This document shows positions 1 to 25,844 of a stretch of 28,482 bases of DNA, one piece after another. The position numbers were made by a program, and so were the translations under genes. Each line of letters opens with the position of its first letter. Position 1 is the first letter of the stretch. The notes under the pieces were generated by a model. It ran no database searches and was not told the DNA's origin. It saw nothing but the letters and a program-made list of their open reading frames with translations. The stretch is from Saccoglossus kowalevskii. Lineage: Eukaryota; Hemichordata; Enteropneusta; Harrimaniidae. The stretch lies in the NCBI RefSeq assembly GCF_000003605.2, contig NW_003156733.1, positions 675,500 through 703,981 of the forward strand. Direction: 5' to 3'.

Positions 1-1351
1 TGGCTTCGGCTGAATCACTACAGAATTGTGTATACATTCGAATTACGTGTTTACTTGGCCTCCATAACACCACACTGTGCGTACGTAAAACAGAGACGTA
101 TACCCCTAAACAATGAACTAACTTGATTATACGTGTACGACTGTAACATAGCGAACTTTACTTCAGTTTTAAAGCCCACATTTATTATTATTAGAAACAA
201 CATTTTGCCGAGTGTGCTATTCTGGTATCTTGATTTGATGATGATACGGGATAGGTAATTAAGATAAAATTTCGTCTTTAAAATATGTAGCATTCCAGTA
301 AAGTATATCTCACGACCACACCATAACGCTCTATCACGACCCATACTATGACAACGGTATATTTATTATAGGTAATTGATTGAACTCTATACTATTTTTT
401 TGCCTTTTCTAGATAACTCTTTGTGACTGTATAAAACTTGAGTTTGGTTCGAGCTTTCGTGTGATTTCACCGAATAATGACAATTACTACGGAGGAAATA
501 ATTTATATATTTTAAAAATTGCCCATCCTCAGCTGTGTATCGGGATGAAAAGATACAATAAAGATATATACAATGAGTTTAGTGTTCTTTTGTATCGTCG
601 CTGTAATTTGTTTCATGGGTTACTAGGGAGGGGAGATAATTCTTTATGCAAGCATGTTAGAGAATACCATAGTACACGTGGAAATAAAAACATACTGGCA
701 GTATTTAATTAACCCGGAAAATGGTATTTCGTGTAAAATTAAAACGGATTTCCGACAGAAAGAGCAGTTTGAATACGGGCTATTAATGTTTAAATTAATA
801 GTTAGCCGGGCACTGTAGATACATGCTTTGTTCAGCGCCCATTCAAGTAGTTACGTTAATACGTTATATAATCCACCAGTAAATTTCTGTAATTGAATAA
901 ACACATGTCAATTTCCGTGGATATTTCCATACTAACGCCAGATGACAATCTTGAACCTGGGCATATGGTTGACCTTGGAATTGTGTTACTCTGAAGGACA
1001 GTGCATATCCATGGATAAAGTTTTCATTCGTCAAAATGTGTGGATCTTGTTTAAAAAAATACAAATCTACACTACTACCGCCGTCCTAGAATGTTCTGTT
1101 TCGGTCACCTTCTCAATTTGTGCTGTACGCTAAATGGCGACGTTTACGGGAACCAGGTGGGAACACTGAATTTCAACGGCAACTGTTTTTTAGGGACTAC
1201 ACTCTAACTCGGACAAGACAAGGAGGTCATGTTCACCGCACCCTCAGAACTACAGCAATCATCGGAAGGGAGTGAGAACTGTCGCCTCTACCATGCACAG
1301 TACAAGTAGTTGAAAAATACCTAATCAGAAAAGATTAAAAATTAAACATAC
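1..1351 (-). other. Presumed first intron of the CIMIP5-like gene; no coding signal found
   Basis: The interval downstream of the donor at 1351 has several short open frames on both strands (for example 51-344 minus and 461-712 plus). None has a domain, a signal peptide or exon-like borders. I found no acceptor followed by the expected NW-F-L-DYD continuation of the upstream exon. It is most simply read as intron. Confidence 0.45.
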
Positions 1352-1590
1352 CATTTCGCAAGACCTTTCTGTTCATTCGACACACTCTGTTTCCAGATCT
1401 TGTCTTGCGTCACCGCATCACATTTCTCATAAACCTCCTGGGAGTAATTTTGAGGAGGTGCTGGCGCTGGGTTGCTCTTCTTCTCTGCCGGTATACACGT
1501 CTGATGGTACGAGCTGTGGGGACGAGGAGCAACAGGAAAACGGTAACCAGCGGAAGTGCTTCGGTTAGTCATAGTAACAGTGCGATCCAT
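1352..1590 (-). CDS. CIMIP5: First coding exon of a CIMIP5/C2orf50-like ciliary microtubule inner protein
   Basis: Seen: an ATG at 1590 in a good Kozak context (AAAATGG) opens a 79-codon exon. It ends in a strong donor (AAATG|GTATGT, minus strand) that splits a Trp codon, so it is a phase-2 exon. Residues 11-24 contain RSTSAGYRFPVAPRP. A Pro-rich stretch follows (about 35-48), then CDAVTQDKIWKQ (about 57-68), ending QKGLAKW. From memory, human C2orf50 (renamed CIMIP5) begins with an RTTSAGYRLPPTRPP block and has CDGVQQDQLWREL followed by a Gln/Arg-rich run and W, so the two conserved blocks match in order and spacing. The vertebrate protein is a small component of the lumen of ciliary doublet microtubules. 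The remaining exons, expected to carry an NW-F-L-DYD motif, were not found between 1 and 1351 and probably lie left of the window. The identity rests on two short blocks, so it is likely but unconfirmed. Confidence 0.72.
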
Positions 1591-2068
1591 TTTGTGTCTC
1601 TGTAGTGTTTGTGTCTTTTAGTAGAGAGGTGTGTATAACAAAGTGTGTCTTAGTTATAGATAGCTGCTCCTGTGGCGATTTACTCTGTATAACTGGCCAG
1701 TCTAAGAGAAAAGGAACCGGTTAATACTCAAGTGGTGTACTTTAAGCACCCGCGGACAGTTCTTGGTTGATATAAAGTGTCGTTGAGTTTTGAAACGCTT
1801 ATATCACTGTTTATCAATGGCCGCGAATTGTAGCCAGCGGTGAGATGCCGATCTCATTAATACCTGCCAGTTGAGGCCGGTTAAAGCAGCAGTGTTAAAC
1901 AGTGTACTGTGTTACGTCTCCCACTCTCTCTCTGCAATTATATAGCAACCTGATGCGCGTAATAACCGGTAATTTACTAGGTCAGTTCCCTCGTCGCGTC
2001 GACAGCTGCTGGTAACGACCTTTCTGTTTTCCGGTGTCGACTCTAGTAGCATCCGTTCCTTATTGCAG

Positions 2069-3731: not shown

Positions 3732-4922
3732 CTGACAATATGTATTACTTATTCATCGTATTAATATTAGCAAGAAGACAATTTGTTAATTGCGGATAGT
3801 TGAGTACATTTCAAGCGTCATAATGGCACGTTTACTCAACAGGTTGCTATGGCAATAACACGCCGCAGTCGTACAGTTGCCTTCCTTTCAAGTATTATAC
3901 TAGTGTTACACAAGCTGTCTGTTATAACTAATAATGTCATGTTCTTCGAATCGTTCTCAACACGTATCACGTTTACTCTTTTCATTTTATTTTCCGCAGT
4001 TACCACATTGATACTGTAAGTGTGTCCCGACGGGGCGGGAGGGGTAGGGCGTTTCAGTCATAAATATAAACAATATTCGGTGCATATTCGCCAGCATGAA
4101 TTTCAAAGAGGATATCATATTTAACACTGGAAATATAAAACGAATGAGTTACACTTGAACTGAAATGAGCAGCACCCGATGTGCGGCGATCAGTATAATG
4201 ATGTACATTTCATGAAATGTATGAATTCACAACAACGTGTAATTCGCGGCGCAGGTTTCACCACTCTTACCTTTTTGACATGATGTTTCATAGAAATACG
4301 CACGTACCCATATTTGCTGAGAAGGTACGCTGCTCGCCCTATAGCAAAGACGACATCGTGAGAATTGCAGCAATACAGGTCGCCGGTGAGTCAAATAAAC
4401 GTAACACAGTTTGACAAAATATAATTTGCATTTTGCTCATCAATTATGCATACAATTTCAAAAGTCGACACGATCTACTGACTTCCTATGGTGAAGCTTT
4501 ATTCAATACATTAGGCTCAGAGACTTCGATCTCATCCATCAGGCCAATTATGACGAACCGCGTCGATAGGAGTCTTTCAAAACAAATCTTTGCGAGACGT
4601 GTACTAGAATTCGCTTGTTAACTATTCAGTCCTGTTCATGGAATTGATTTTTTTGAATTGACTTTCCGTGTTTTTGTTCAAAGTTTGTCTTTGTGTGTGT
4701 AGTCGTTTAATTCATTCAATGGGGTATGCGTGCTGGCTTGATTCCCAGGTGTGCCTAGTATAGCAGCATTATTACGCCCGTTAACTGAGTTGAGTCATCG
4801 ACGGGCACATTGTTATAGAGACATGTTTTATACTGCGATATATTACTGAATTATACCTGTTTATGACTTTAGTTGTTCTTAGAAATCGAAATGTTTTTAC
4901 AAATATTTATTCATTATACACC

Positions 4923-5402: not shown

Positions 5403-6484
5403 GTTTTTCCACAATTTATCATATTTCTATCACGATTGAAGATAGGAATATGGCTTCTCTAGCCAGCTATCTGCTAGTCACGGTGGCCAACGTGAAATCC
5501 TCTCCTATAAGCGGTCCATCACATGTCCGTTATGCGCGATATTATGATTATTACCACACATCAACGATACTAAAAAAAACAAATTTCCGGATTTCGTAGT
5601 TGAAACAAATTGTGTTTATATGAGAATTGACAACACGCTGTGCATCTCGAGTAGTTCAAGGTTGCAACAGCAGAATTATACGCCGGGTACGTCACCATTT
5701 TCTGTCAACAGTATTATCGATTTCAAATCGTTATCCCGGAAAATTGTCCCGATGTGTCCCCGTTTTAATTTTATAATTATTAAAGGAAATATAAATTAAA
5801 ATGTTGAATGGCAGTTGGTCCATGAATACGACGCTCGGCGTGAAATTATTTGGAACGATTGCTGCGCAAGAACCACACAATTTTTTAATTATAAGGTAAT
5901 TTCGCAGTTTGTCATGGCAACTGAAATTCAGTTGATCAACTGATCATTTAATTTGCGCAACTATTGAAGAGTTTAAAGAGTATGGTCTGAATTACTAATA
6001 AAATACATAAGATAGGAACGCTCTGAAAGAAATGCTTCCAAAAAGTCGATACATAGAATTCAAACAGAATTTAAATGTGAACTTGTATTCGACGTGGTCC
6101 CCGTGCGAAGTATATGCGTGTAAAATTACAACAGGAAATTTGCACAGTCACAACAGCAGGAGTCCAAAGCTGTGATGCCCAGATTCGGAAAATCAAATAA
6201 TAAAAACGAGATGAAATACTGAGCAAGTTCAATCACCTGAAATTCATTAGTATATATATATTACTGATATTCTGATTGTCGAAAAAAAATATGCTATAAT
6301 ATTAAGTTTGTTTTCGATATTTTTTGTAATAATATGTTTGTAATAACAAAAATAAAAGCAGTGCAATACGGATTACAAATACGATAATGCGTATATTTCT
6401 ACACTGTAGAGGGCGCTTATACAGCAGTGCAACTTGTTGAGTAAGTAAGTATTCGCATTTGAGATAAGGCTTATGCAACACAGG
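5403..6484. other. Intergenic stretch, nothing supported
   Basis: AT-rich sequence with no coding frame of note. It contains one X-box half-site (GTCATGGCAAC, 5911-5921) and a short (TA)n-like run near 6250. Confidence 0.5.
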
Positions 6485-9943: not shown

Positions 9944-11027
9944 ATGTGGCAGTGTTTTGTTCAGAGATACTTTCCTGTAATTCATTAATTAAGCAACCGT
10001 CTGGTTCATGTGCACGTGCATTATACCATACAACGCCATATTCGATCGGATCCTTCCTGCAATTCTCATGTGTAATTATCTGAGGATGACGTCGATGATG
10101 ATGCGTCACTAGAGAGTTTTTATTCTCTAGCGGCGATCATACTTAAATTGCCACCCTGGCGAGCAAACATGTGTTTTATAATTAGTCATTGAATTTAAAT
10201 TCAAATATTCGAATCGATTGTTTCTATAATGTATATGGATTGAATGTGTTTAAAAGACAACCCTGGCTATGGGTGTAACACGTACCCACGGACCGGCAAC
10301 GCCGCGGCCTAGATCATTAAAAAAAAACTTAGGCCAGAGGGGCTGACGAAATCTACCCACTAGCATGCAAGTAGAGCGAATTCAAGAAGAGAAGAGATCG
10401 AGTGACTAGTTCAAACGATAGGAATATTTACAGCCAGACAAACGCTACTAGGAAACTAGTTTGTTTTCATCGGTGGCGTATCCGGGTCAATGCGTCCATC
10501 CGTATTGCTAAAGGTTGCTGTCAACAACCATGATAAACACGCCAGGATATCACAATAGAATATTCAAGTATATCACCGTGTTATTGTGTATGTGTACTTG
10601 GATAGAAGTAAGTCATTCGACAAAGCGCCTATAATTGCCTGCATATAGTACAAGGGAATATAAACCCCGGAGAGAATTTCTTTGTTCATTTTCCCTAAGT
10701 GTATATTCCTATGAAACTGTTCTTGAAAAACAAAAAAAAGATTACGTAATGTGATTTAGCCTCGATCTCAAATGCCCATAAGTAGCGTTCGTACACGAAC
10801 GACTGAGCTTGTGGTGTACAACTGTTGGACTCTTGGTCTCAATAATATATCTGTCAATCATTTTCGAGATGTAAAAATAAACAGTATTATTATACATCTG
10901 TCACCGTAACGCCATACGTTACAGCGTGCCGTAATTTTGCGGTATTTTACGGAGTATTTTCATCCTACCATATTAGGGAATGCGAATTCCATATATGAAA
11001 TGATAACGCGCGTAGGCGTCCTCTAAT
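9944..11027. other. Intergenic stretch, nothing supported
   Basis: A short hairpin (CTAGAGA at 10109-10115 with TCTCTAG at 10124-10130, 8-nt loop) is the only structure seen. Open frames here are short and unremarkable. Confidence 0.5.
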
Positions 11028-11146
11028 AATAAAAACAAACATGGCTGCCACCGGGGTTTGACCGAACTCCATACAAAGAAGTTCGCTGATTCTGTTCTAA
11101 ACTTTTTAGATTTCGGCATTCCCATGATGTATCCTTGGTAGGGAAA
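11028..11146 (+). repeat. Dispersed repeat, copy A, cut by the assembly gap
   Basis: It matches copy B at 22328-22447 nearly base for base: AACAAACATGGCTGCCACCG, GGGTTTGACCGAACT, GTTCGCTGATTCTGTTCTAA and TTTCGGCATTCCCATGATGT have close counterparts there. It runs directly into the N gap, so its right end is unknown. No terminal repeats are visible. Confidence 0.85.
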
Positions 11147-11335
11147 NNNNNNNNNNNNNNNNNNNNNNNNNNNNNNNNNNNNNNNNNNNNNNNNNNNNNN
11201 NNNNNNNNNNNNNNNNNNNNNNNNNNNNNNNNNNNNNNNNNNNNNNNNNNNNNNNNNNNNNNNNNNNNNNNNNNNNNNNNNNNNNNNNNNNNNNNNNNNN
11301 NNNNNNNNNNNNNNNNNNNNNNNNNNNNNNNNNNN
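11147..11335. other. Assembly gap (189 N)
   Basis: An unbroken run of N. The left edge is inside a dispersed repeat, which may be why the assembly failed here. Confidence 1.
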
Positions 11336-16726: not shown

Positions 16727-17943
16727 TATTTTCTCCGCGCACACTATGTAAAGTATTAAACGCTGCTCACAGTTATAGTTAGTATTTTTTTATCTCAATT
16801 TGTTTTATTATTTTTTTTTTGTATTAACAGCGTGTTTTTTTTGATGTGTGACTTTTGTTGCTTGCACGACGACGAACTACCGGTACGTAATTCAGGAGCG
16901 CGAACTAGTACCTTATTCAACATTATAATACACGTCAGTCATTGTATGGTCACACGCAAAATGATCCGTTTTTTCACGCAATACCACTGACTGTATCCTT
17001 CTGTGTCTCTCAAGCATTGAACAGTATTTTTTTCGACATCTCATTACTATGGTTTGTATTAGAACAAACATGATGATGTAATGATGATGTAAGAATTCTG
17101 GCTGTACAAATAGGATTTACGATTTCAAAATAAATTATGTTAGCTGTAAAAACAAAACAGAAAGCAGTAATTGTACCTACTAAAATCTTACACAGTCATG
17201 ACAACCATGTAAGCGTGTTTTATTGCTGTTGGAACCATCGGTGTTTAAATCAGAGTTGCGATGCATCGGGTATTTTAAGGTCCATATTTTCCGTGAAGTG
17301 TTACCTTATGATTGATATTTAATGCACAAACCTAGTATGTTTTATATGTATGTTCTGTACAAAATGAATTATTTACTATATCGCTTGGCCCGCTTGTTGT
17401 AAGTCGAAAAGACGGTGACCGAATACGCATGTGGTTCCAATTAATCAATCAGTTGAAATAGTGTAAACGCAATAACGTTAAATTGCCCACTCAACGAACT
17501 TAAGAAACGACGTGAGGAAAAGTCAAAACATTTTTTCACACTGAACATTCAGTTCAATAAAATTTCTGTTTATTCTCAATAAAATGTAAACCATTACACA
17601 GCGACATTTCTGACGCATCGAGACTTTGTTGGAGTTTTTTTTTATTGAAGACACGTGGTTTGGACAAACATGCATATACATGTATATATATCCACAAGGA
17701 AACAGTGGCGTGTACAGAATACACTCAGATAAAGTAGAATCAGAAAGTTTTAGCAGAAACGCCACTTAGGTAAGTACCATCCGTACGGTAATGTGCTTAT
17801 ATCATTGGCAAGGTTCAGTTGTACTACGATGCTTTTGAATTGATCCAGCCTTGGTACTTTCGCTAGTAGATTTTTCATCATTGTTTGCAACAGAGAATCG
17901 GACGGTTTACATTCTTATAACATCTGTTTTCCAGTTCTAAAAA

Positions 17944-18011
17944 ATGAGGACGCAGAATATCATCGCTGTCTCCCTGATATTGATCGTGTTGTTGGCCGAC
18001 ACCTTTGCAGA
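17944..18011 (+). CDS. Secreted Arg-rich/acidic protein, coding exon 1 (signal peptide)
   Basis: This is the first of five coding exons of a 104-residue protein: 17944-18011, 20037-20120, 20968-21078, 22060-22095 and 22241-22256. The exon encodes MRTQNIIAVSLILIVLLADT followed by FA, a textbook signal peptide cleaved near Ala22. It ends at a strong donor (GCAGA|GTAAGTATG). A good acceptor (CTGTTTTCCAG, ending 17934) lies 9 bp before the ATG, so an upstream noncoding exon is likely. All four coding introns are phase 2. The mature protein starts basic, with three Arg triplets, and ends very acidic. I recognise no family. Possible roles are a matrix or polyanion-binding protein, or a peptide precursor processed at the Arg clusters; neither is shown. 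Confidence 0.8.
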
Positions 18012-18517
18012 GTAAGTATGTATTACATCAACCCATGTATTGGGGGCTGCGTCGCACAAATTAGAAGTAAAAAGAGAGAAGGCAGTTGTTTTGGGCAAAC
18101 ATAATGAACAATTGTAATATATACATAATTTGAATTATACAAGCCGTGGCTATGTGTACGTTATTCCACAATTCTCAGTATTGAGAAGTAGGCCCAAAAC
18201 CTGATTAGCACACGATAGGGTTAAATCTTTCTGTCAGAAAATCGACAAAAATAGTATTTTGCGCTGCGGATGAAGAACATTGCGACCCTTGGGTATTGGG
18301 GATTCAAGCGATAAGCATGAGAAAAACAATTGTTCAGAATTACGCCGGCAAACGACGTCGAAAAGGATTGGCTCGCTCGTGAACCTGGAAGCTTTGTTGA
18401 CCCTCAAAACACAATCAGCCACACTTGCACGACACTAATCAACTTTTGTGTTTTTTTTTTTTTTTAAATTAAGTCAATTGAGATGAGTTTACATATATAA
18501 ACGTTGCTTCTAACACG

Positions 18518-18535
18518 CACACACACACACACACA
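18518..18535 (+). repeat. (CA)9 microsatellite
   Basis: Nine uninterrupted CA units inside intron 1. Confidence 0.95.
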
Positions 18536-18784
18536 AAGAACTACGCGAATAAACCTATAATAACGCAGTAATACGGTTGCGAATTTGCGCCACCGTTCGG
18601 TATATTTATAATCGCTTCGTGCATGCTAGTTCCAGAGCCAATTTTTGTTTTACCACGGTTACAAGTAGAACGTTCTCAGTACTGTATCACATTTGTACAT
18701 AGTGTTTAGTTTACGTGTGTCAAAATTACCTTTAAAATGAAGTTGTTATAATAGAATAATTAACATAGCCGCCCAAAAGAATAG

Positions 18785-19338
18785 TATTATCACGGGGACG
18801 ATTCTTCTCCTCCGGGGTTCTTCAATACGTGTCAGGGGGGAATACCTTCTGGTCTCTATATCACGTTTGCTTGAGGTACGGGATCTGGAACGTTTCTTAA
18901 ACTTTACAGTCAAATAGATACACACAACTAAATACGTATCAACTCTCGTCTTTAAACGGTCAGTCGAGTACTCTATAAGACACAGCGCCCTGGGGAAAAG
19001 TCTTCAAGACTATCGCAAGGCTGATCCAAGACTGCGTCTCTCCTGGTGTTCTCGCCAAGACCAACTAAAAATTCTTTATTCACTTTCAAAACCTTAACCA
19101 ATTACAAAGACGTTAAAAGACTCCAAGGCGTGGCCTTCACACATACAGCCAATCACACTAAGTACTGGACACGTCATACCTACTGATTAATCCGACGTCC
19201 GCCATATTATAAACTACGCATACCAAACGTTAGAAATAGTAGTCCGGATAGCGACGGCTATATCATAATTAGTTCCAAGTCACTGAGTCGAGTTCCATCC
19301 AGGACCTCACATGAGTCTAATTGATGACAAATATAACA
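18785..19338 (-). mobile_element. LTR-like segment (putative solo or truncated LTR)
   Basis: Read on the minus strand, it starts TGTTATATTTGTCATC, contains a TATA-like TATAATATGG and, further on, an AATAAAG signal. It ends ...CCCCGTGATAATA, so the ends resemble the inverted TGTTAT/ATAACA of LTRs with one change. The order promoter, polyadenylation signal, end is that of an LTR. No second LTR, clear primer-binding site or target duplication was found, and no protein is encoded. Gypsy-like by feel only. Confidence 0.4.
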
Positions 19339-19364
19339 CAGCCTTTCACTAGTAATCAGCTAAA

Positions 19365-19576
19365 TACTGTAAAATACTTTATTTTCACTGGAATTTATTT
19401 TCGCTGAAAAGACTTTTTAGGTGTGTTATATGGAATTTATTTTCACTGATTTTTGGCGAGTTGAATGTAAAAGATAGGAAAACAGGTATATTCGCTGGAT
19501 TTTATTTTCACTGAATCATTCCTTTAGCGAAAAAGGCGAAAATTAATTCCAAACGAAAATAACGTATTCCACAGTA
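19365..19576. mobile_element. TA-flanked MITE with about 22-bp terminal inverted repeats
   Basis: The left end TACTGTAAAATACTTTATTTTC and the reverse complement of the right end (TACTGTGGAATACGTTATTTTC) differ at three positions; the outer TA is probably the target duplication. The interior repeats TTTATTTTC[AG]CTG about four times. Elements with TACTGTAAA...TTTATTTTCGC ends are common, from memory, in marine invertebrate genomes. It has no coding capacity. It lies 26 bp from the LTR-like segment. Confidence 0.8.
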
Positions 19577-20036
19577 AGTCGATCAACAGATACGCGAAAA
19601 CTAATTCATGACAGTATACCACCCGATTTTGTACAGCTCACTCCGTATACATATTATTTATCGCTTCGGTGTGTATACTGTATGTCGTACTACTGGTTAA
19701 AAACTCGTGGTATACTCGCCTCTTGGATGGCGGGTGGTGTAGTTCCCCTTAAATAAAGTTACTAAATCGTTAATTGTCGGCACAATTTTGTATTACGTGT
19801 GAAAAGATATTGATCAATGTATTGAGATTTTGTTTCGTTTACTACTTTTTTGACGTTGTTGTGAAATACAAGTCATATTCCTAACCACGTCAATACAAGG
19901 GGGATATTATAGTGCACTTTTTCTCAACAGGTTTTAGGCTGGGTAAGAAAATGCACTAGTTGCAAAATAAACTCATTGTTGCGCAGTCGTTTCGTATTTC
20001 GTATCACCCACATCGTATTTTGTGTTCACTCTTTAG

Positions 20037-20120
20037 GGCTGCTGCAAACCGACGTCGTACTAACAAACCTCGACGTCGTAACACTGGCAGAGACCTTGAC
20101 CAAGAAGGGCTACAAACAAG
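20037..20120 (+). CDS. Secreted Arg-rich/acidic protein, coding exon 2 (basic repeat unit 1)
   Basis: Acceptor TTCACTCTTTAG, donor ACAAG|GTAATT; 84 nt, phase 2 at both ends. It encodes AAANRRRTNKPRRRNTGRDL followed by DQEGLQT. Two Arg triplets are possible proprotein-convertase sites. The order N-R-R-R-[TS]-N ... G-R-D-[LV]-D-Q recurs in exon 3, and the nucleotides still align, so the two exons are duplicates. Confidence 0.82.
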
Positions 20121-20967
20121 GTAATTAGTGACCGTATGTATCATATGATTTCGCCATGTTGTGTTTATTTCATATTCTAAAGCCACAACTGTGTGTGGTT
20201 GTTTGGTATTTCATATCTCTAATGCATGCATGACTAGAATACAAGACACGCGGGTGCATTCAATTGTCCATGTCAGTATGTGTTGACTTTCCCATGTAAT
20301 ATTACATTTGTCTTTATTTCAACCGAACACCTGGAGTTAACATATTAATGCATTGTGCATGCCTTGGCCATACTCACACTTTCAGGCACGTCACATCGAG
20401 TCGAATGTCTAGCTTTCCTTATTTTGCAAGTTATAGGTCGAACCAATCACATTTGCTTAATCTGAGCGTCACGGTGGCGTCACGAGGCCACGTGATTCTG
20501 CTAATGAAAAGCTTGTATACAGTACACATGTCGTTTAGATACAATTTGGTGACGGTGCACATGTGAATAAATGCCCCGACTCACGGTAACATAGCCATTG
20601 TCATCACAATAAAAAAACAAATTTCTATGCGTTTTAAATGCAAATCTGCTGAAGAACAATAAATAACTACACCAAATGCCAATGGTGAATGGACTGGTAA
20701 CATTATACACCAATGTTTCTTACTGTATATAGCTTCCAAACACGGTGCTCGTGACACTAAACATTCGTAACATATTTTTAAAGGGTGAGATAACTTTGTT
20801 CTGAGGCAATTTGTGTATCGTTGTACTGCACTCACGTTAGTTCACTTTGGTGCCGGTAAACAAAATTATATTGTAATTACTGTTTCATTTGGACCACCAG
20901 CTACTTTATTGTATGGGACAGATGGATGACAAAGTTTAACTTTTAATTTTAAACTCTGATCGTGTAG
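20121..20967 (+). other. Intron 2 of the secreted-protein gene
   Basis: An 847-bp GT...AG intron with no identifiable repeat or gene. The minus-strand open frames at 20501-20835 have no recognisable content. Confidence 0.75.
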
Positions 20968-21078
20968 GGGTAGCGGCAACCGGCGTCGTAGTAATAACGG
21001 CAATGGCAATGGCAGGGACGTGGACCAAGATATTGTCACCCTGGACGACGACTTTGAAGAAATATCTCCGCAAGAAAG
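20968..21078 (+). CDS. Secreted Arg-rich/acidic protein, coding exon 3 (basic repeat unit 2 and acidic linker)
   Basis: Acceptor GATCGTGTAG, donor GAAAG|GTAACA; 111 nt, phase 2 at both ends. It encodes GSGNRRRSNNGNGNGRDVDQ then DIVTLDDDFEEISPQE. The first part mirrors exon 2 (NRRR-S/T-N, GRD-V/L-DQ). The rest is a new acidic stretch. The frame stays open only with this phase, which supports the splice sites. Confidence 0.82.
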
Positions 21079-22059
21079 GTAACATGAGATCGTCTGTTAC
21101 TATTGTTTCCCCTTCCTCGATGTGAATCCACGTTCGAAATGAGCTGTTTTCTTTAGATGTAACCATTACTGGCGACATTACTGGAGTGAAATGGCGCACT
21201 TGTTTTACGTATTGAGTCGAAAAAATAATTATTCATTGGTTTCACTCAAAAAAAAAAAATATTCTTTCGTTTTCTGATAAATATTTCAATACTATTTCTG
21301 GCTTGAACACGTTCAACTGAACACGTTCAACTGTTCCGCGCATAGGAGCTATATAACTTTCCCTAGTCAGCTTAAAAAAAAATTAGTTAGTCGTTTATTG
21401 CACGATATAATGTCTTAACAACTTCAACTTGAACTAATCTGCATCTTTTTTTAACAAAAATCAGAAATATTTTAATCTGTTTAACAGGACGGGCGACTTA
21501 ACATACCTGTGTTAAATTAGAACGCTACACAAAAGTAAAAATATTGTCATTTTCCTTATTTTTGCATATTTGCTATGCCATGTTACCATGTTGGTGTCGA
21601 TCATTAAAACACAGTGAAAATAGCATGTTTTGATCGTTTTATGACATTTCACCATTATATTGTTTCACATGGCAAGGATATATTTCAATGTCTCAAAATG
21701 TCGATAGGTTACGAATGGTGTTGTTAGTGGGTAAATGATTAGAAAATGTGTTTTCACTGTGGTCTATGGAAGCCGCTGCTAAAATGGAATATTACATTAT
21801 GCAGTCTACCTTAACCAACATGAACTTGTAGTTTAAATTATTCGAATATGCAAATGATTCGTATGCAAATCTGCCCTGTGTTTTTATGTGTATGGTCTAT
21901 ATTTAGTCCTTTTGTATCATGTTACGAGTTGGGTATCCGATGCAGTGAAGTGTAGGTGTACTTCAAAACACACAATTACAAAGAAATTTATCGCAATTCA
22001 CGGCATACATTTACATTGCGTACAGATAATATCGTGATTTATTTCGTTACATTCTACAG
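21079..22059 (+). other. Intron 3 of the secreted-protein gene
   Basis: A 981-bp GT...AG intron. It contains a 14-bp tandem repeat (TGAACACGTTCAAC twice, 21304-21331) and nothing else recognised. Confidence 0.75.
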
Positions 22060-22095
22060 ATTTCTTCAGGAGAACGAAGACATAGAGAATGATTG
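22060..22095 (+). CDS. Secreted Arg-rich/acidic protein, coding exon 4 (36-nt acidic microexon)
   Basis: Acceptor TTACATTCTACAG, donor GATTG|GTAGGT; 12 codons, phase 2 at both ends, reading FLQENEDIEND with a split Arg before and a split Trp after. A second donor 4 nt downstream (TAG|GTAACC) would end the protein at Trp with an in-frame TAG, so two isoforms with nearly the same end are possible. Confidence 0.7.
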
Positions 22096-22240
22096 GTAGG
22101 TAACCAAATTATATCGTTGCACTCATACTAGTAGCGATGAACAGCGCCCCCAGTTTCTAATCTTGATAATAACTACTTGATTGTTGTCGACGATCAATTT
22201 TTCGCGTATCTGACAATTGTAAATTTGTTTTACCTGCTAG

Positions 22241-22256
22241 GTTTGAAGAGGAATGA
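22241..22256 (+). CDS. Secreted Arg-rich/acidic protein, terminal coding exon
   Basis: Acceptor TTTGTTTTACCTGCTAG. The frame completes Trp, adds FEEE and stops at TGA (22254-22256). The exon continues as 3' UTR to 22284, where a good donor (TATGAG|GTATGT) joins it to the last exon. A stop codon upstream of a spliced 3' UTR exon is unusual (see findings). Confidence 0.65.
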
Positions 22257-22327
22257 AGATGACTGAGATATGTATTTCTATGAGGTATGTTTTAATTCGT
22301 GATTGAAATTAGAGTACATATTAGGGC

Positions 22328-22447
22328 ATAATAAAACAAAAATGGCTGCCACCGGGGTTTGACCGGACTTCACACAAACAAGTTCGCTGATTCTGTTCTA
22401 AACATTTTCGATTTCGGCATTCCCATGATGTATCCTCGGAAAGGAAA
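22328..22447 (+). repeat. Dispersed repeat, copy B, in the 3' UTR intron
   Basis: It is nearly identical to 11028-11146 across about 120 bp (ATGGCTGCCACCGGGGTTTG, GTTCGCTGATTCTGTTCTAA, CGGCATTCCCATGATGTATC). It may extend right towards about 22560, where copy A is hidden by the gap. It is inserted in the intron between the terminal coding exon and the last exon. Confidence 0.85.
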
Positions 22448-22690
22448 GATGTATAATAATAAGCTTATACCGCACACCGTCGCACCTAGCCCCTGCTGCG
22501 CGTCGATCGATTCTCAAGCTGTACTGTCTTCGTGCATACTTTGAGGTATCCTCGTAATAACCTCATATTATTACAATACACTGTGACGTGATGTAATATA
22601 TTTACATTGTATTTTAATGCTACGTGCTATAGTGTATTACTGTATAATAATGACATAAATGTAACACAGGCTACTTATTTTATTTTTCAG

Positions 22691-22840
22691 CGTTGTTTCT
22701 GGAACAACTATATTTATGACGCGGATAACGACCATGACGACAGCGTTGTCAGGGAATAGTGTTGTTTACATTTACGAGACCCGTGTAACGCGTATTTACG
22801 TTTTAAAAATATAATAAATCATATGCATATAACACTTTAA
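22691..22840 (+). other. 3' UTR exon of the secreted-protein gene (approximate right end)
   Basis: A strong acceptor (TTTTATTTTTCAG) ends at 22690. The exon runs to a polyadenylation signal about 120 bp later and a T/GT-rich tract. It contains an open frame of 22 codons from its first base to TAG at 22757-22759, whose acidic composition is like the main protein. Confidence 0.65.
22813..22818 (+). terminator. Polyadenylation signal AATAAA
   Basis: A canonical hexamer followed 25-45 bp later by a GTTGTTTTTCTTTGTTTTG downstream element; it fits the end of the secreted-protein gene. Confidence 0.75.
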
Positions 22841-23040
22841 ACCAATGTTGTTTTTCTTTGTTTTGGGTTCGGTGAGGTAACCCCGCTCCCTAAAGAAAAG
22901 CGAGGTGCCTTCACAGCATCGTTATGGACGCCATCATAAGCTTGATAATGATTACTGCCCACATTCTAGTCATATCGCCCTCACACGCATTCAAGAAAGA
23001 TATAGATAACGTCTTGCCAATACAGTTTTAACTTCACTTA

Positions 23041-23337
23041 TTAATAACAACACAACTCGTAATTGTTATTCAAATAATTAACAATACTTTTACGCCCTTG
23101 AACGTCACATGGATACCACTGCCTGCAGCAATTGCGAGACAGCAACTGAGGCACTAAAGCGACAAACGTATTTGTGAGGTTTTGGAGTTTGGCTGGCTTG
23201 TTGGGGAGGATGTGGACAGACTTAACGTCTTGGGAGTAGGATTCGAGTGCAACATGAAACGTACTCGCGGAACGAACGCAAGAGAGAACACACAAAATAA
23301 GTAGAAAGGTAGCAATGATGATACCAGGGTGATACAT
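23041..23337 (-). CDS. Candidate Cys-containing amidated peptide precursor (98 aa)
   Basis: A single-exon frame of 98 codons. Residues 1-23 (MYHPGIIIATFLLILCVLSC then VRS) form a good signal peptide with a hydrophobic core at 6-19. There is an N-glycosylation sequon at 53-55 (NLT). Near the C-terminus LLSRNCCRQWYPCDVQGRK contains Cys70, Cys71 and Cys77, followed by Gly-Arg-Lys (81-83), the classic signal for cleavage and C-terminal amidation. A short tail follows, ending ELCCY. This layout is that of a peptide hormone or neuropeptide precursor. The ATG context is weak, no clear polyadenylation signal follows (only AATAAG), and I know no matching family. It is convergent with the upstream secreted-protein gene, about 200 bp away. 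Confidence 0.42.
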   Translation of the reverse strand: MYHPGIIIATFLLILCVLSCVRSASTFHVALESYSQDVKSVHILPNKPAKLQNLTNTFVALVPQLLSRNCCRQWYPCDVQGRKSIVNYLNNNYELCCY

Positions 23338-23757
23338 ATGAGCGGCAACACAAATCGTTAATTGGTCCAGTGACGACTCGTGATTGGAGAATAAATCGCA
23401 TCTGTGATTGGACCAAATTTAATTAATTTCATAGGTTGTGATGTTTATCTCGGAATCCAAAATGTCGTATCAAAGTGCAACTTATTGAAAATGATTCTTC
23501 GAATTTTCTGCACCACAAAAATAATATCATTAATATTAAGGTCGCGTTTATATCAATTTTATCGCGATGTTGCGGCAGTGGATTAAATAAATAAATCAAA
23601 GCTCGCGAGCACACAACCTCAAAAATATGGGTTTACTCATTCTCGACCTTACCGATCGTTTAGTCTTAAATTTGATAGACGATGTTATTGTGAAAGCCAA
23701 TTAAATACCGAGGAGTCAGTTCCAGGGATTACTCAAGCCAAAATAGGTGTATGATAG

Positions 23758-25010
23758 TTGAATTGAATTTTATTCATTTAATTTACAGGCAATATTGATA
23801 AATGAATACAATACAAATAACACTGAAATACGTATTGAATAGGAAGCTGGAAACTAGTGTAAAACACTAGTCGAGTCCACCCCCTTTTCTAGGTGAAATA
23901 CAAACTATAATAATAAGTGGACGCTATTTTTTTTACATACAACTCAATTATGCATGCATAGTGTAAAAATCTGTTCATTTCTTTTTTAAATGAATTTCTT
24001 GAGCTCATGGAACGAATTTCTTCTGTGAGTTTATTCCAGAGTTTAGCCCCAGCATATTTGATTGAATGTTGTCCAGAATTAGTATGGTATTTTGGAATTA
24101 TAAGATTACCTAATGCTTTTGATTTTGTGTGATAAGAGTGTTGGATGGAAGAGAATTATTGAGAAAACCCTGTTGGTAACTTGCCATTGAGATTATCATG
24201 AACAAACAAAGACATTTGCAAATCATGTTGTTTATAGATATTTAGTACATGGAGCTGATTAAAAAGTGAAGAAATGTGTGAGAGGCGATCTGATCCTGTT
24301 ATTATGCGTACAATTCTTTTCTGTGTGAGATGTAAGTTGAGTACGTGTTCCCCCAAACTTCTAGTACATAGGAAATATGTGGTAGGATGAAACAGTTATA
24401 TAATAGTAAAAGAATAAATGGTGGAATAATGTCCCCCAACTTGAAAAGAATACCTGCTTTACTAGTTATTGTTTTGTTTACTTTTTGTATATGGTTCTTC
24501 CAGTCAAGGTTATTGTCCAATTCAACACCAATGTACCCAGTTGTTTCAACTTCATCTATTGTTACCCCTTTTATATTAATTGTGCCCGTTGAATGCATTG
24601 ATGCCTGTTTACCTCTAAATATAATGTATTCAGTTTTTTTGGAATTTATTGTTAATTTATTTGTATCGCACCAGTCTACAACATTGTTTAAATGGGAATT
24701 TACATTTGAAAGATCTATTGTGTTTTTTGAGTTGAAGGTATGAAATAGGCTGGTGACGTCTGCAAATAAACGGGTGTCGAAATATTCTGTGGCACTTGCA
24801 ATATCATTTACGTAAATCAGAAAGAGTGTCGGACCTAGCACAGAGCCCTGTGGAACTCCACAAGTAATTGGTAGTTCATTTGACTGCATCCCATTAATAT
24901 TGACATGTTGATTCCTGCTTGTTAAGCAATTTGTGAAGAGATTTTTAGGGATCCCCCGAAAACCGTAATTGTCTAGTTTGCTAATTAGAATATCACGATT
25001 CACAGTGATC
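23758..25010 (-). mobile_element. 5'-truncated non-LTR retrotransposon
   Basis: The minus-strand homology starts abruptly at about 25010, inside the N-terminal RT region, and runs to a 3' end with AATGAATAAAATTCAATTCAA (plus coordinates about 23758-23778). 5' truncation and a short simple 3' tail are typical of target-primed reverse transcription. The RT type suggests the CR1/Jockey-like group, but I cannot place the clade. No target duplication could be defined. Confidence 0.8.
23889..25003 (-). pseudogene. Broken reverse transcriptase/pol of a non-LTR retrotransposon
   Basis: The longest frame (25003-24302, first codon GTG, so it is not a true start) has the RT motifs VNRDILISKL, GVPQGSVLGPTLFLIYVNDI and KLTINSKKTEYI, in the expected order. 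The catalytic FADD box reads FADV near residue 80 (codon at 24757-24755), so an active-site Asp is lost. A frameshift near 24325-24345 moves the homology into another frame (HLTQKRIVRIIT...). An in-frame TAA lies at 24156-24158, after which the C-terminal homology continues (KYAGAKLWNKLTEEIRS) to a final stop at 23889-23891. It is a dead copy with no likely product. Confidence 0.9.
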
Positions 25011-25844
25011 TTCTATTGTGTAAAATTCGGTATTAATTCTAACACCCAAACTGCACTTAGAGCTAATGTCAGTCTTTTCCTTGTTAATGTCTACTACGAT
25101 TCTCGAGTCCTAGCGCGATACTGATTCGGCATGCCCTTCGGGGATGTACCAAGACTACATATACCTCGTCTGCAATACACATCTCCCATGGGCAATACAA
25201 CCGATGTCAGTATTGAATCAACTAACTTACCAATGATCACAGTACACATGCCATCTAACCTACCATCAAATCATTCATGTTGCAATAAACTAAGTCAACC
25301 ATGAGATCCAAAACAGAATCAAACTCCAATAATTGACCCAATTATCGAATGTATCAAAACTATTATAGTTCTTATACACTCACAAACTCTCCAAACCATC
25401 ATGTATTCCTAATGTCAAGCAAACTTCTATTCTGCCAAGTATTTCATCTACTAGCAACAGACAGTTTTAGGACCCTTATACACTGTAACCTCGCTACAAC
25501 GAGCCCATTGAAGGACACGAATTTAGTTCGTTACAATTTAATGGTATACATACAAGTCACGATAGTACGATTACACATTAAGTACTAGTACATAAACAAC
25601 GTTATATCAATTGATAGAGCATTTAATAAAATAGTTAATAAAAAACTCTCGTCACTGTTTGATTTATTATTTTCTATGCATGTATAAAGGCCGAGAGCTG
25701 ATAAGTCTCAATATTTCGCAATAGCACTATTATATATAAAGATCCATGGAGCTGGAGATATATACTTTCAAATATTAGTACGCTTTGATAAACATAAACT
25801 CGTTAATAGTAGGGGTGAATATATTGATCGTGTACAGTCTTTAT
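25011..25844. other. Intergenic stretch, nothing supported
   Basis: AT-rich sequence with short frames and no recognised element or RNA. Confidence 0.5.

Follow-up and report, generated by a model that had tools for sequence, protein, structure and literature searches.

In this article, I describe a gene for a small secreted protein of the hemichordate Saccoglossus kowalevskii, found in a stretch of 28,482 nucleotides (referred to throughout as the window) that occupies positions 675500-703981 of contig NW_003156733.1 in a genome of 572 Mb and 4830 contigs. The gene joins five coding exons into a 104-residue protein with a signal peptide, two duplicated Arg-rich modules and a strongly acidic tail, and a second copy lies on the same strand roughly 27 kb past its end. 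The function that I consider most likely, with a confidence that falls a little short of even, is that of a precursor of linear, Cys-free, Arg-rich secreted peptides, which would likely serve in host defence as antimicrobials and which an acidic C-terminal pro-tail would hold inactive.

Spliced together, the coding exons (17944-18011, 20037-20120, 20968-21078, 22060-22095 and 22241-22256) give 315 nt and 104 amino acids, and all four coding introns are of the GT-AG type and interrupt the frame in phase 2. An initial annotation had proposed five exons with consensus splice sites, phase 2 throughout and a protein of this length, and the spliced translation agrees with it down to the exact junction coordinates; its span of 17944..22840 leaves out an exon of the 5' untranslated region (UTR) at approximately 17713-17769, and it described neither this exon nor that of the 3'UTR. 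The features of the gene are:

17683..17689 (+): TATA-like box, about 30 nt 5' of the inferred transcription start
17713..17769 (+): 5'UTR exon, its start inferred from the TATA box and its end set by the donor at 17770
17935..18011 (+): exon 1, with 9 nt of 5'UTR, the ATG at 17944 and the whole signal peptide (22 residues), ending in phase 2
20037..20120 (+): exon 2, 84 nt, phase 2-2, basic repeat A with NRRRTN at 20047-20064 and GRDLDQ at 20086-20103
20968..21078 (+): exon 3, 111 nt, phase 2-2, basic repeat B with NRRRSN at 20978-20995 and GRDVDQ at 21011-21028, then an acidic stretch
22060..22095 (+): exon 4, 36 nt, phase 2-2, acidic RFLQENEDIENDW (first and last codon split with the adjoining exons)
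22241..22284 (+): exon 5, final codons WFEEE, stop codon TGA at 22254-22256, 28 nt of 3'UTR, donor at 22285
22691..22835 (+): exon 6, 3'UTR only in the main model, end inferred
22813..22818 (+): polyadenylation signal AATAAA
22328..22447 (+): dispersed repeat within the 3'UTR intron, outside the gene product, with a second copy at 11026-11146

Splice sites were scored with a generic animal matrix drawn from general knowledge across the 429 GT and 290 AG sites of positions 17000-23400. On this scale the coding donors rank 8th, 2nd, 9th and 17th and the coding acceptors 4th, 16th, 8th and 11th, the 5'UTR donor at 17770 has the top score of all GT sites and joins the acceptor 9 nt before the ATG, and the acceptor of the 3'UTR exon at 22691 ranks second among the AG sites. 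The stop codon stands only 28 nt before the last junction, and as nonsense-mediated decay usually follows a rule of 50-55 nt, this is too close to mark the mRNA for decay.

A search of both strands of the window for spliced open reading frames (ORFs) of at least five exons and at least 300 nt with a hydrophobic N-terminus gave six chains, all on the + strand and none on the - strand, each of which contains exons 1-4 and differs from the others solely in the last exon. In first-order Markov controls of the 5.5-kb region, such a chain arose in none of 1000 at the splice thresholds of the model (an earlier implementation gave 1 of 200); when these were relaxed, it arose in 11 of 1000, two of these being same-phase. 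Since the thresholds had been chosen so that even the model's weakest site narrowly passed, the test is partly circular and not decisive alone. The rival view, in which the model is spurious and consists of chance ORFs lying between splice-like sites, can point to this origin of the thresholds and to splice matrices from general knowledge. What is decisive is the tandem paralogue in locus L008, where tblastn found exons 1-4 in order, and whose coding exons are as follows:

L008, same strand as the window gene: 1775-1842 (68 nt), 2659-2748 (90 nt), 4521-4616 (96 nt), 6000-6035 (36 nt) and 6198-6213; contig positions 725756-730194

The paralogue encodes 101 residues, of which 69 of 99 aligned are identical to the window protein in a global alignment (67 of 106 columns by BLASTP), and its coding introns are phase 2 in four of four cases. 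The junctions of the untranslated regions are kept as well, namely the 5'UTR donor GTAAGTACC, the acceptor before the ATG, the exon 5 donor and the exon 6 acceptor; TATATAT stands 5' of the paralogue's 5'UTR donor too, and its last exon contains ATTAAA. Relative to the window gene its exon lengths differ by +6 and -15 nt, each a multiple of 3, and the aligned intron parts also hold indels of other sizes. The dN/dS between the copies is 0.40 by the Nei-Gojobori method (bootstrap 2.5-97.5% 0.22-0.74, with 5 of 2000 replicates reaching 1) at a dS of 0.46, and this value, taken with the conserved structure, indicates that selection has maintained the reading frame in one copy or in both. Exon order, phases, junctions, frame-preserving length differences and dN/dS all speak against a chance gene model, which given the paralogue is very unlikely, and on this conservation, which extends to every coding exon, the gene model can be regarded as real; the retention of the frame and of both repeat exons likewise supports the original description of a secreted protein built by exon duplication. 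Two gene copies is a lower bound: when the whole genome was searched with the protein in six frames (E <=10), the matches were exons 1, 2 and 3 of the window gene, the paralogue's exon 3 and a place on another contig at chance level (E 7.3). The sensitivity of this search is limited, as it missed exon 4 of the window gene and the other exons of the paralogue. A DNA search of the genome with the 84-nt exon 2 matched itself alone, and no third gene was found in the 134 kb readable of 280 kb around the window.

The repeat unit reads N-R-R-R-[ST]-N, a linker, and G-R-D-x-D-[QP]-[ED], and is present in all four repeat exons of the two genes; the linker varies in length, being Gly/Asn/Arg-rich in three of the four copies and a single Lys in one, and the conserved part comprises the basic core, the Gly-Arg and the acidic stretch. 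That exons 2 and 3 with their shared motifs are duplicated copies, as had been proposed, is borne out by their alignment score, which none of 5000 codon shuffles reaches, and by the presence of both in the paralogue. Within the window, tblastn without composition correction gave E values of 0.003, 0.008 and 0.026 by query, and the pair was not within the best 25 of 387 pairs in a composition-corrected, low-complexity-filtered comparison of ORFs against ORFs. When the same number of substitutions was placed at random, the BLOSUM score had a P of 0.003 and identity a P of 0.11, which is not significant; the substitutions are conservative by BLOSUM, not by identity alone. Similarity of the surrounding introns is absent from the 200-nt flanks (256 and 273 of 300 shuffles reach the score), from the 40 nt upstream (287 of 300) and between introns 1 and 2 (164 of 300), and is weak in the 40 nt downstream (8 of 300) and between introns 2 and 3 (11 of 300). 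No third repeat was found in the window and the 134 kb readable around it, where two exon matches were at chance level (E 0.36 and 0.88).

The two modules occupy corresponding exons in both genes, the sequence surrounding exon 2 can be aligned from one gene to the other (E 8e-12), and exon 3 matches the exon 3 of the other gene (E 6e-11) far better than either exon 2 (1e-4 and 0.01), from which it is most likely that the exon duplication preceded the gene duplication. The exon 2 peptide of the window gene finds a slightly better match in exon 3 of the paralogue (E 0.011) than in its exon 2 (0.041), which weighs against this order, yet fits a fast divergence of exon 2. All three internal exons are symmetrical and skipping among exons 2-4 keeps the frame in 8 of 8 combinations, so that the earlier claim of exons that can be duplicated or skipped stands for the frame, skipping itself being hypothetical.

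The protein itself, whose signal peptide is assigned by a hydrophobic run, is Arg-rich first and acidic last, as the initial annotation had noted: residues 25-67 have a net charge of +10 and a pI of 12, residues 68-104 a net charge of -16 and a pI of 4.05, and the window protein holds no Cys and no N-glycosylation motif. RRR triplets lie at residues 28, 35 and 56, inside the basic part, and the only Gly-basic pairs are two Gly-Arg, at the same position in both repeats, with G-R marking the boundary between basic and acidic parts. The absence of a recognised family was confirmed in that the window protein has no match in Pfam (E 10) or NCBIfam (E 10) and one chance match in the PDB (E 2.1); it is a secreted protein that matches no Pfam, NCBIfam or PDB family, 'unrecognised' being limited to these libraries. 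With the paralogue alone, and not with the window protein, Pfam gave sub-threshold alignments to PF10917 (fungus-induced protein; E 0.04, 14.7 bits, cut-off 24) and PF04697 (pinin/SDK; E 0.11, 13.2 bits, cut-off 31.1), both of which are at chance level. No relatives were confirmed among 388 pattern matches in prokaryote genome contigs and 79 in viral contigs, and searches of open papers for the repeat motif strings returned nothing relevant, the three hits being two optics papers and one on a fish-virus capsid.

The peptide-precursor reading offered by the initial annotation is plausible, and one of its closest parallels is found in the myticalins and modiocalins, the linear cationic antimicrobial peptides of mytilid mussels (PMC5577615, PMC12294457). 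The portions of these papers available describe peptides without cysteine (PMC12294457), released from a tripartite precursor with a well conserved signal peptide, a hypervariable basic middle that frequently ends in Gly-Arg, and a moderately conserved acidic tail (PMC5577615, PMC12294457). As far as those portions go, the protein described here shares the signal peptide, the Arg-rich basic middle, the acidic C-terminal extension, the lack of Cys, the Gly-Arg at the basic/acidic boundary (often present in myticalins) and the conserved signal peptide with a variable middle, and the genes share a UTR-only first exon, an intron just before the ATG and neighbouring copies. Between the two Saccoglossus copies, exon 2 shows far greater divergence than the signal peptide or the tail, with dN/dS values of 0.36 for the signal peptide, 0.88 for exon 2, 0.35 for exon 3 and 0.035 for exons 4-5 (point values, those of exon 2 and exons 4-5 from few sites). 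It is this combination of layout, G-R at the border and divergence pattern, as in myticalin-type precursors, on which a defence-peptide precursor is taken as most likely. Under such a mechanism, the protein would be secreted with removal of its N-terminus by signal peptidase and then cleaved either at its RRR triplets or, in each module, behind the G-R that leads into the acidic D-x-D stretch, possibly with trimming and amidation at the Gly of G-R; the released basic peptides would kill or bind microbes, the acidic pro-tail would keep them inactive until then, and phase-2 introns throughout would have allowed the module exon to be copied without a frame shift, most likely once and prior to the gene duplication.

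Membership of the myticalin/modiocalin family was considered and rejected because the introns differ in number and phase, as do the count of repeats and the cleavage site. In the published portions at hand, the myticalin genes have two coding exons and one phase-1 intron, placed shortly past the point where the acidic extension begins, in contrast to five exons and four phase-2 introns here, and a single basic region closed by Lys-Arg rather than two duplicated Asn/Gly/Arg modules with no Lys-Arg. Compared by eye alone, the signal peptide has no obvious likeness to the myticalin consensus MKGxxLLLLTI given in PMC5577615. Several points weigh against the defence-peptide account itself: hydrophobic residues make up only 9% of residues 25-67, and the basic region is not proline-rich, unlike in myticalins; no Lys-Arg site separates the basic and acidic halves, G-R standing there alone; two gene copies were found against 215 myticalin precursors in the accessible text of PMC5577615/PMC12294457; the basic half of exon 3 is conserved, not hypervariable; the dN/dS of exon 2 comes from 28 codons and that of exons 4-5 from 5.7 synonymous sites with dS nearly saturated; and it is by layout alone that an antimicrobial function is suggested. 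A broader proposal, which I hold as speculative and on balance doubtful, is that these genes may represent a new family of modular secreted precursors, in which one phase-2 exon would be a complete unit of basic core, Gly-Arg site and acidic spacer, and exon copying or in-frame skipping would change the number and sequence of the peptides with the acidic tail fixed.

The same modules could instead belong to a neuropeptide-like or hormone precursor, where each would yield a basic peptide that ends at G-R and is trimmed and then amidated, the tail and the D-x-D stretches serving as acidic spacers. The G-R followed by acidic residues in four of four modules, the RRR triplets, and sea-cucumber neuropeptide precursors with monobasic sites, C-terminal amidation and acidic spacer peptides (in the part of PMC6586643 consulted) argue for it; however, a receptor ligand would be expected to show the reverse of what is seen between the copies, where the putative exon 2 peptide has diverged most and the acidic 'spacer' tail least, and the RRR triplets lie inside the conserved core of each module, not flanking it, so that I regard this origin as rather improbable. 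A different possibility, and also an unlikely one, is a disordered extracellular-matrix, mucus or mineral-binding protein that acts without being cleaved: the basic half and the acidic tail would bind mineral or partners of opposite charge, and the small same-phase exons would tune the length of the protein. The polar, low-hydrophobicity blocks of opposite charge and the strongly conserved acidic tail would suit this role, and the same-phase introns recall the SCPP genes of vertebrates (e.g., ameloblastin), which according to the section of PMC6732285 at hand are likewise secreted with one intron phase that makes exon duplication and skipping frame-neutral. But there the introns are virtually all phase 0 and here they are phase 2, no Pfam match reaches its cut-off, and the disorder of the protein is putative. 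Schistosome micro-exon genes offer a further parallel, as they encode secreted proteins of small size from internal exons that are for the most part symmetrical and can be skipped in frame, although their central coding part is described, in the portion of PMC4671649 available, as consisting mostly of exons <36 bp, unlike the internal exons of 84, 111 and 36 nt here and of 90, 96 and 36 nt in the paralogue.

Around the gene, other candidates were tried and set aside. A coding run-on from exon 4 into exon 6 would give a 140-residue form, but the frame of the paralogue stops after CAVSGTTI and the exon 5 ending is preferred; by eye, a second acidic-looking frame in exon 6 is not retained in the paralogue; and the antisense ORF 20939-21232 had no match in Pfam. 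Within intron 1, positions 19931-19942 combine the top-scoring acceptor of the region with a good donor 12 nt on, and their inclusion as an extra exon gives an in-frame stop; they are possibly a chance site or a poison micro-exon. Parts of intron 1 (18788-19615) are a dispersed repeat, 77-93% identical to L003:9833-9993, L004:7-511 and L007:7202-7382 in neighbouring loci, and the repeat of the 3'UTR intron (22328-22447) is 91% identical over 121 aligned nt to 11026-11146, a copy that adjoins an N gap at 11147-11335, with a related stretch in L008 (80%).

Elsewhere in the window, positions 24302-25012 (-) hold a reverse transcriptase ORF fragment (Pfam RVT_1, E 7.7e-14), which I take, by likeness, to be of the LINE type. 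An ORF at 1345-1617 (-) has a weak Pfam match to LLC1 (PF14945, E 0.0025, 18.9 bits, cut-off 27.3) and no PDB match, and is possibly an exon of an LLC1/C20orf85-like gene. Diverged local repeats at 2434-2546 and 2577-2734 contain ORF pairs of 26-32 residues that are 73-78% identical in several frames. Over the whole window the CpG observed/expected ratio is 1.14, with a GC content of 0.32-0.44 by kilobase, and this lack of CpG depletion suggests that germline CpG methylation may be low in the source animal.

The outcome is a gene that has been checked and is present twice in the genome, and whose secreted product is not recognised by Pfam, NCBIfam or PDB sequences; as a peptide-precursor-like protein enlarged via frame-neutral exon duplication, it is an example of how a peptide precursor may grow. 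It could otherwise prove to be one more, ordinary secreted protein of limited distribution; if the pairing of a fixed tail with a free basic exon holds in more species, it would be a testable signature of a tail needed in processing and a released part that diversifies.

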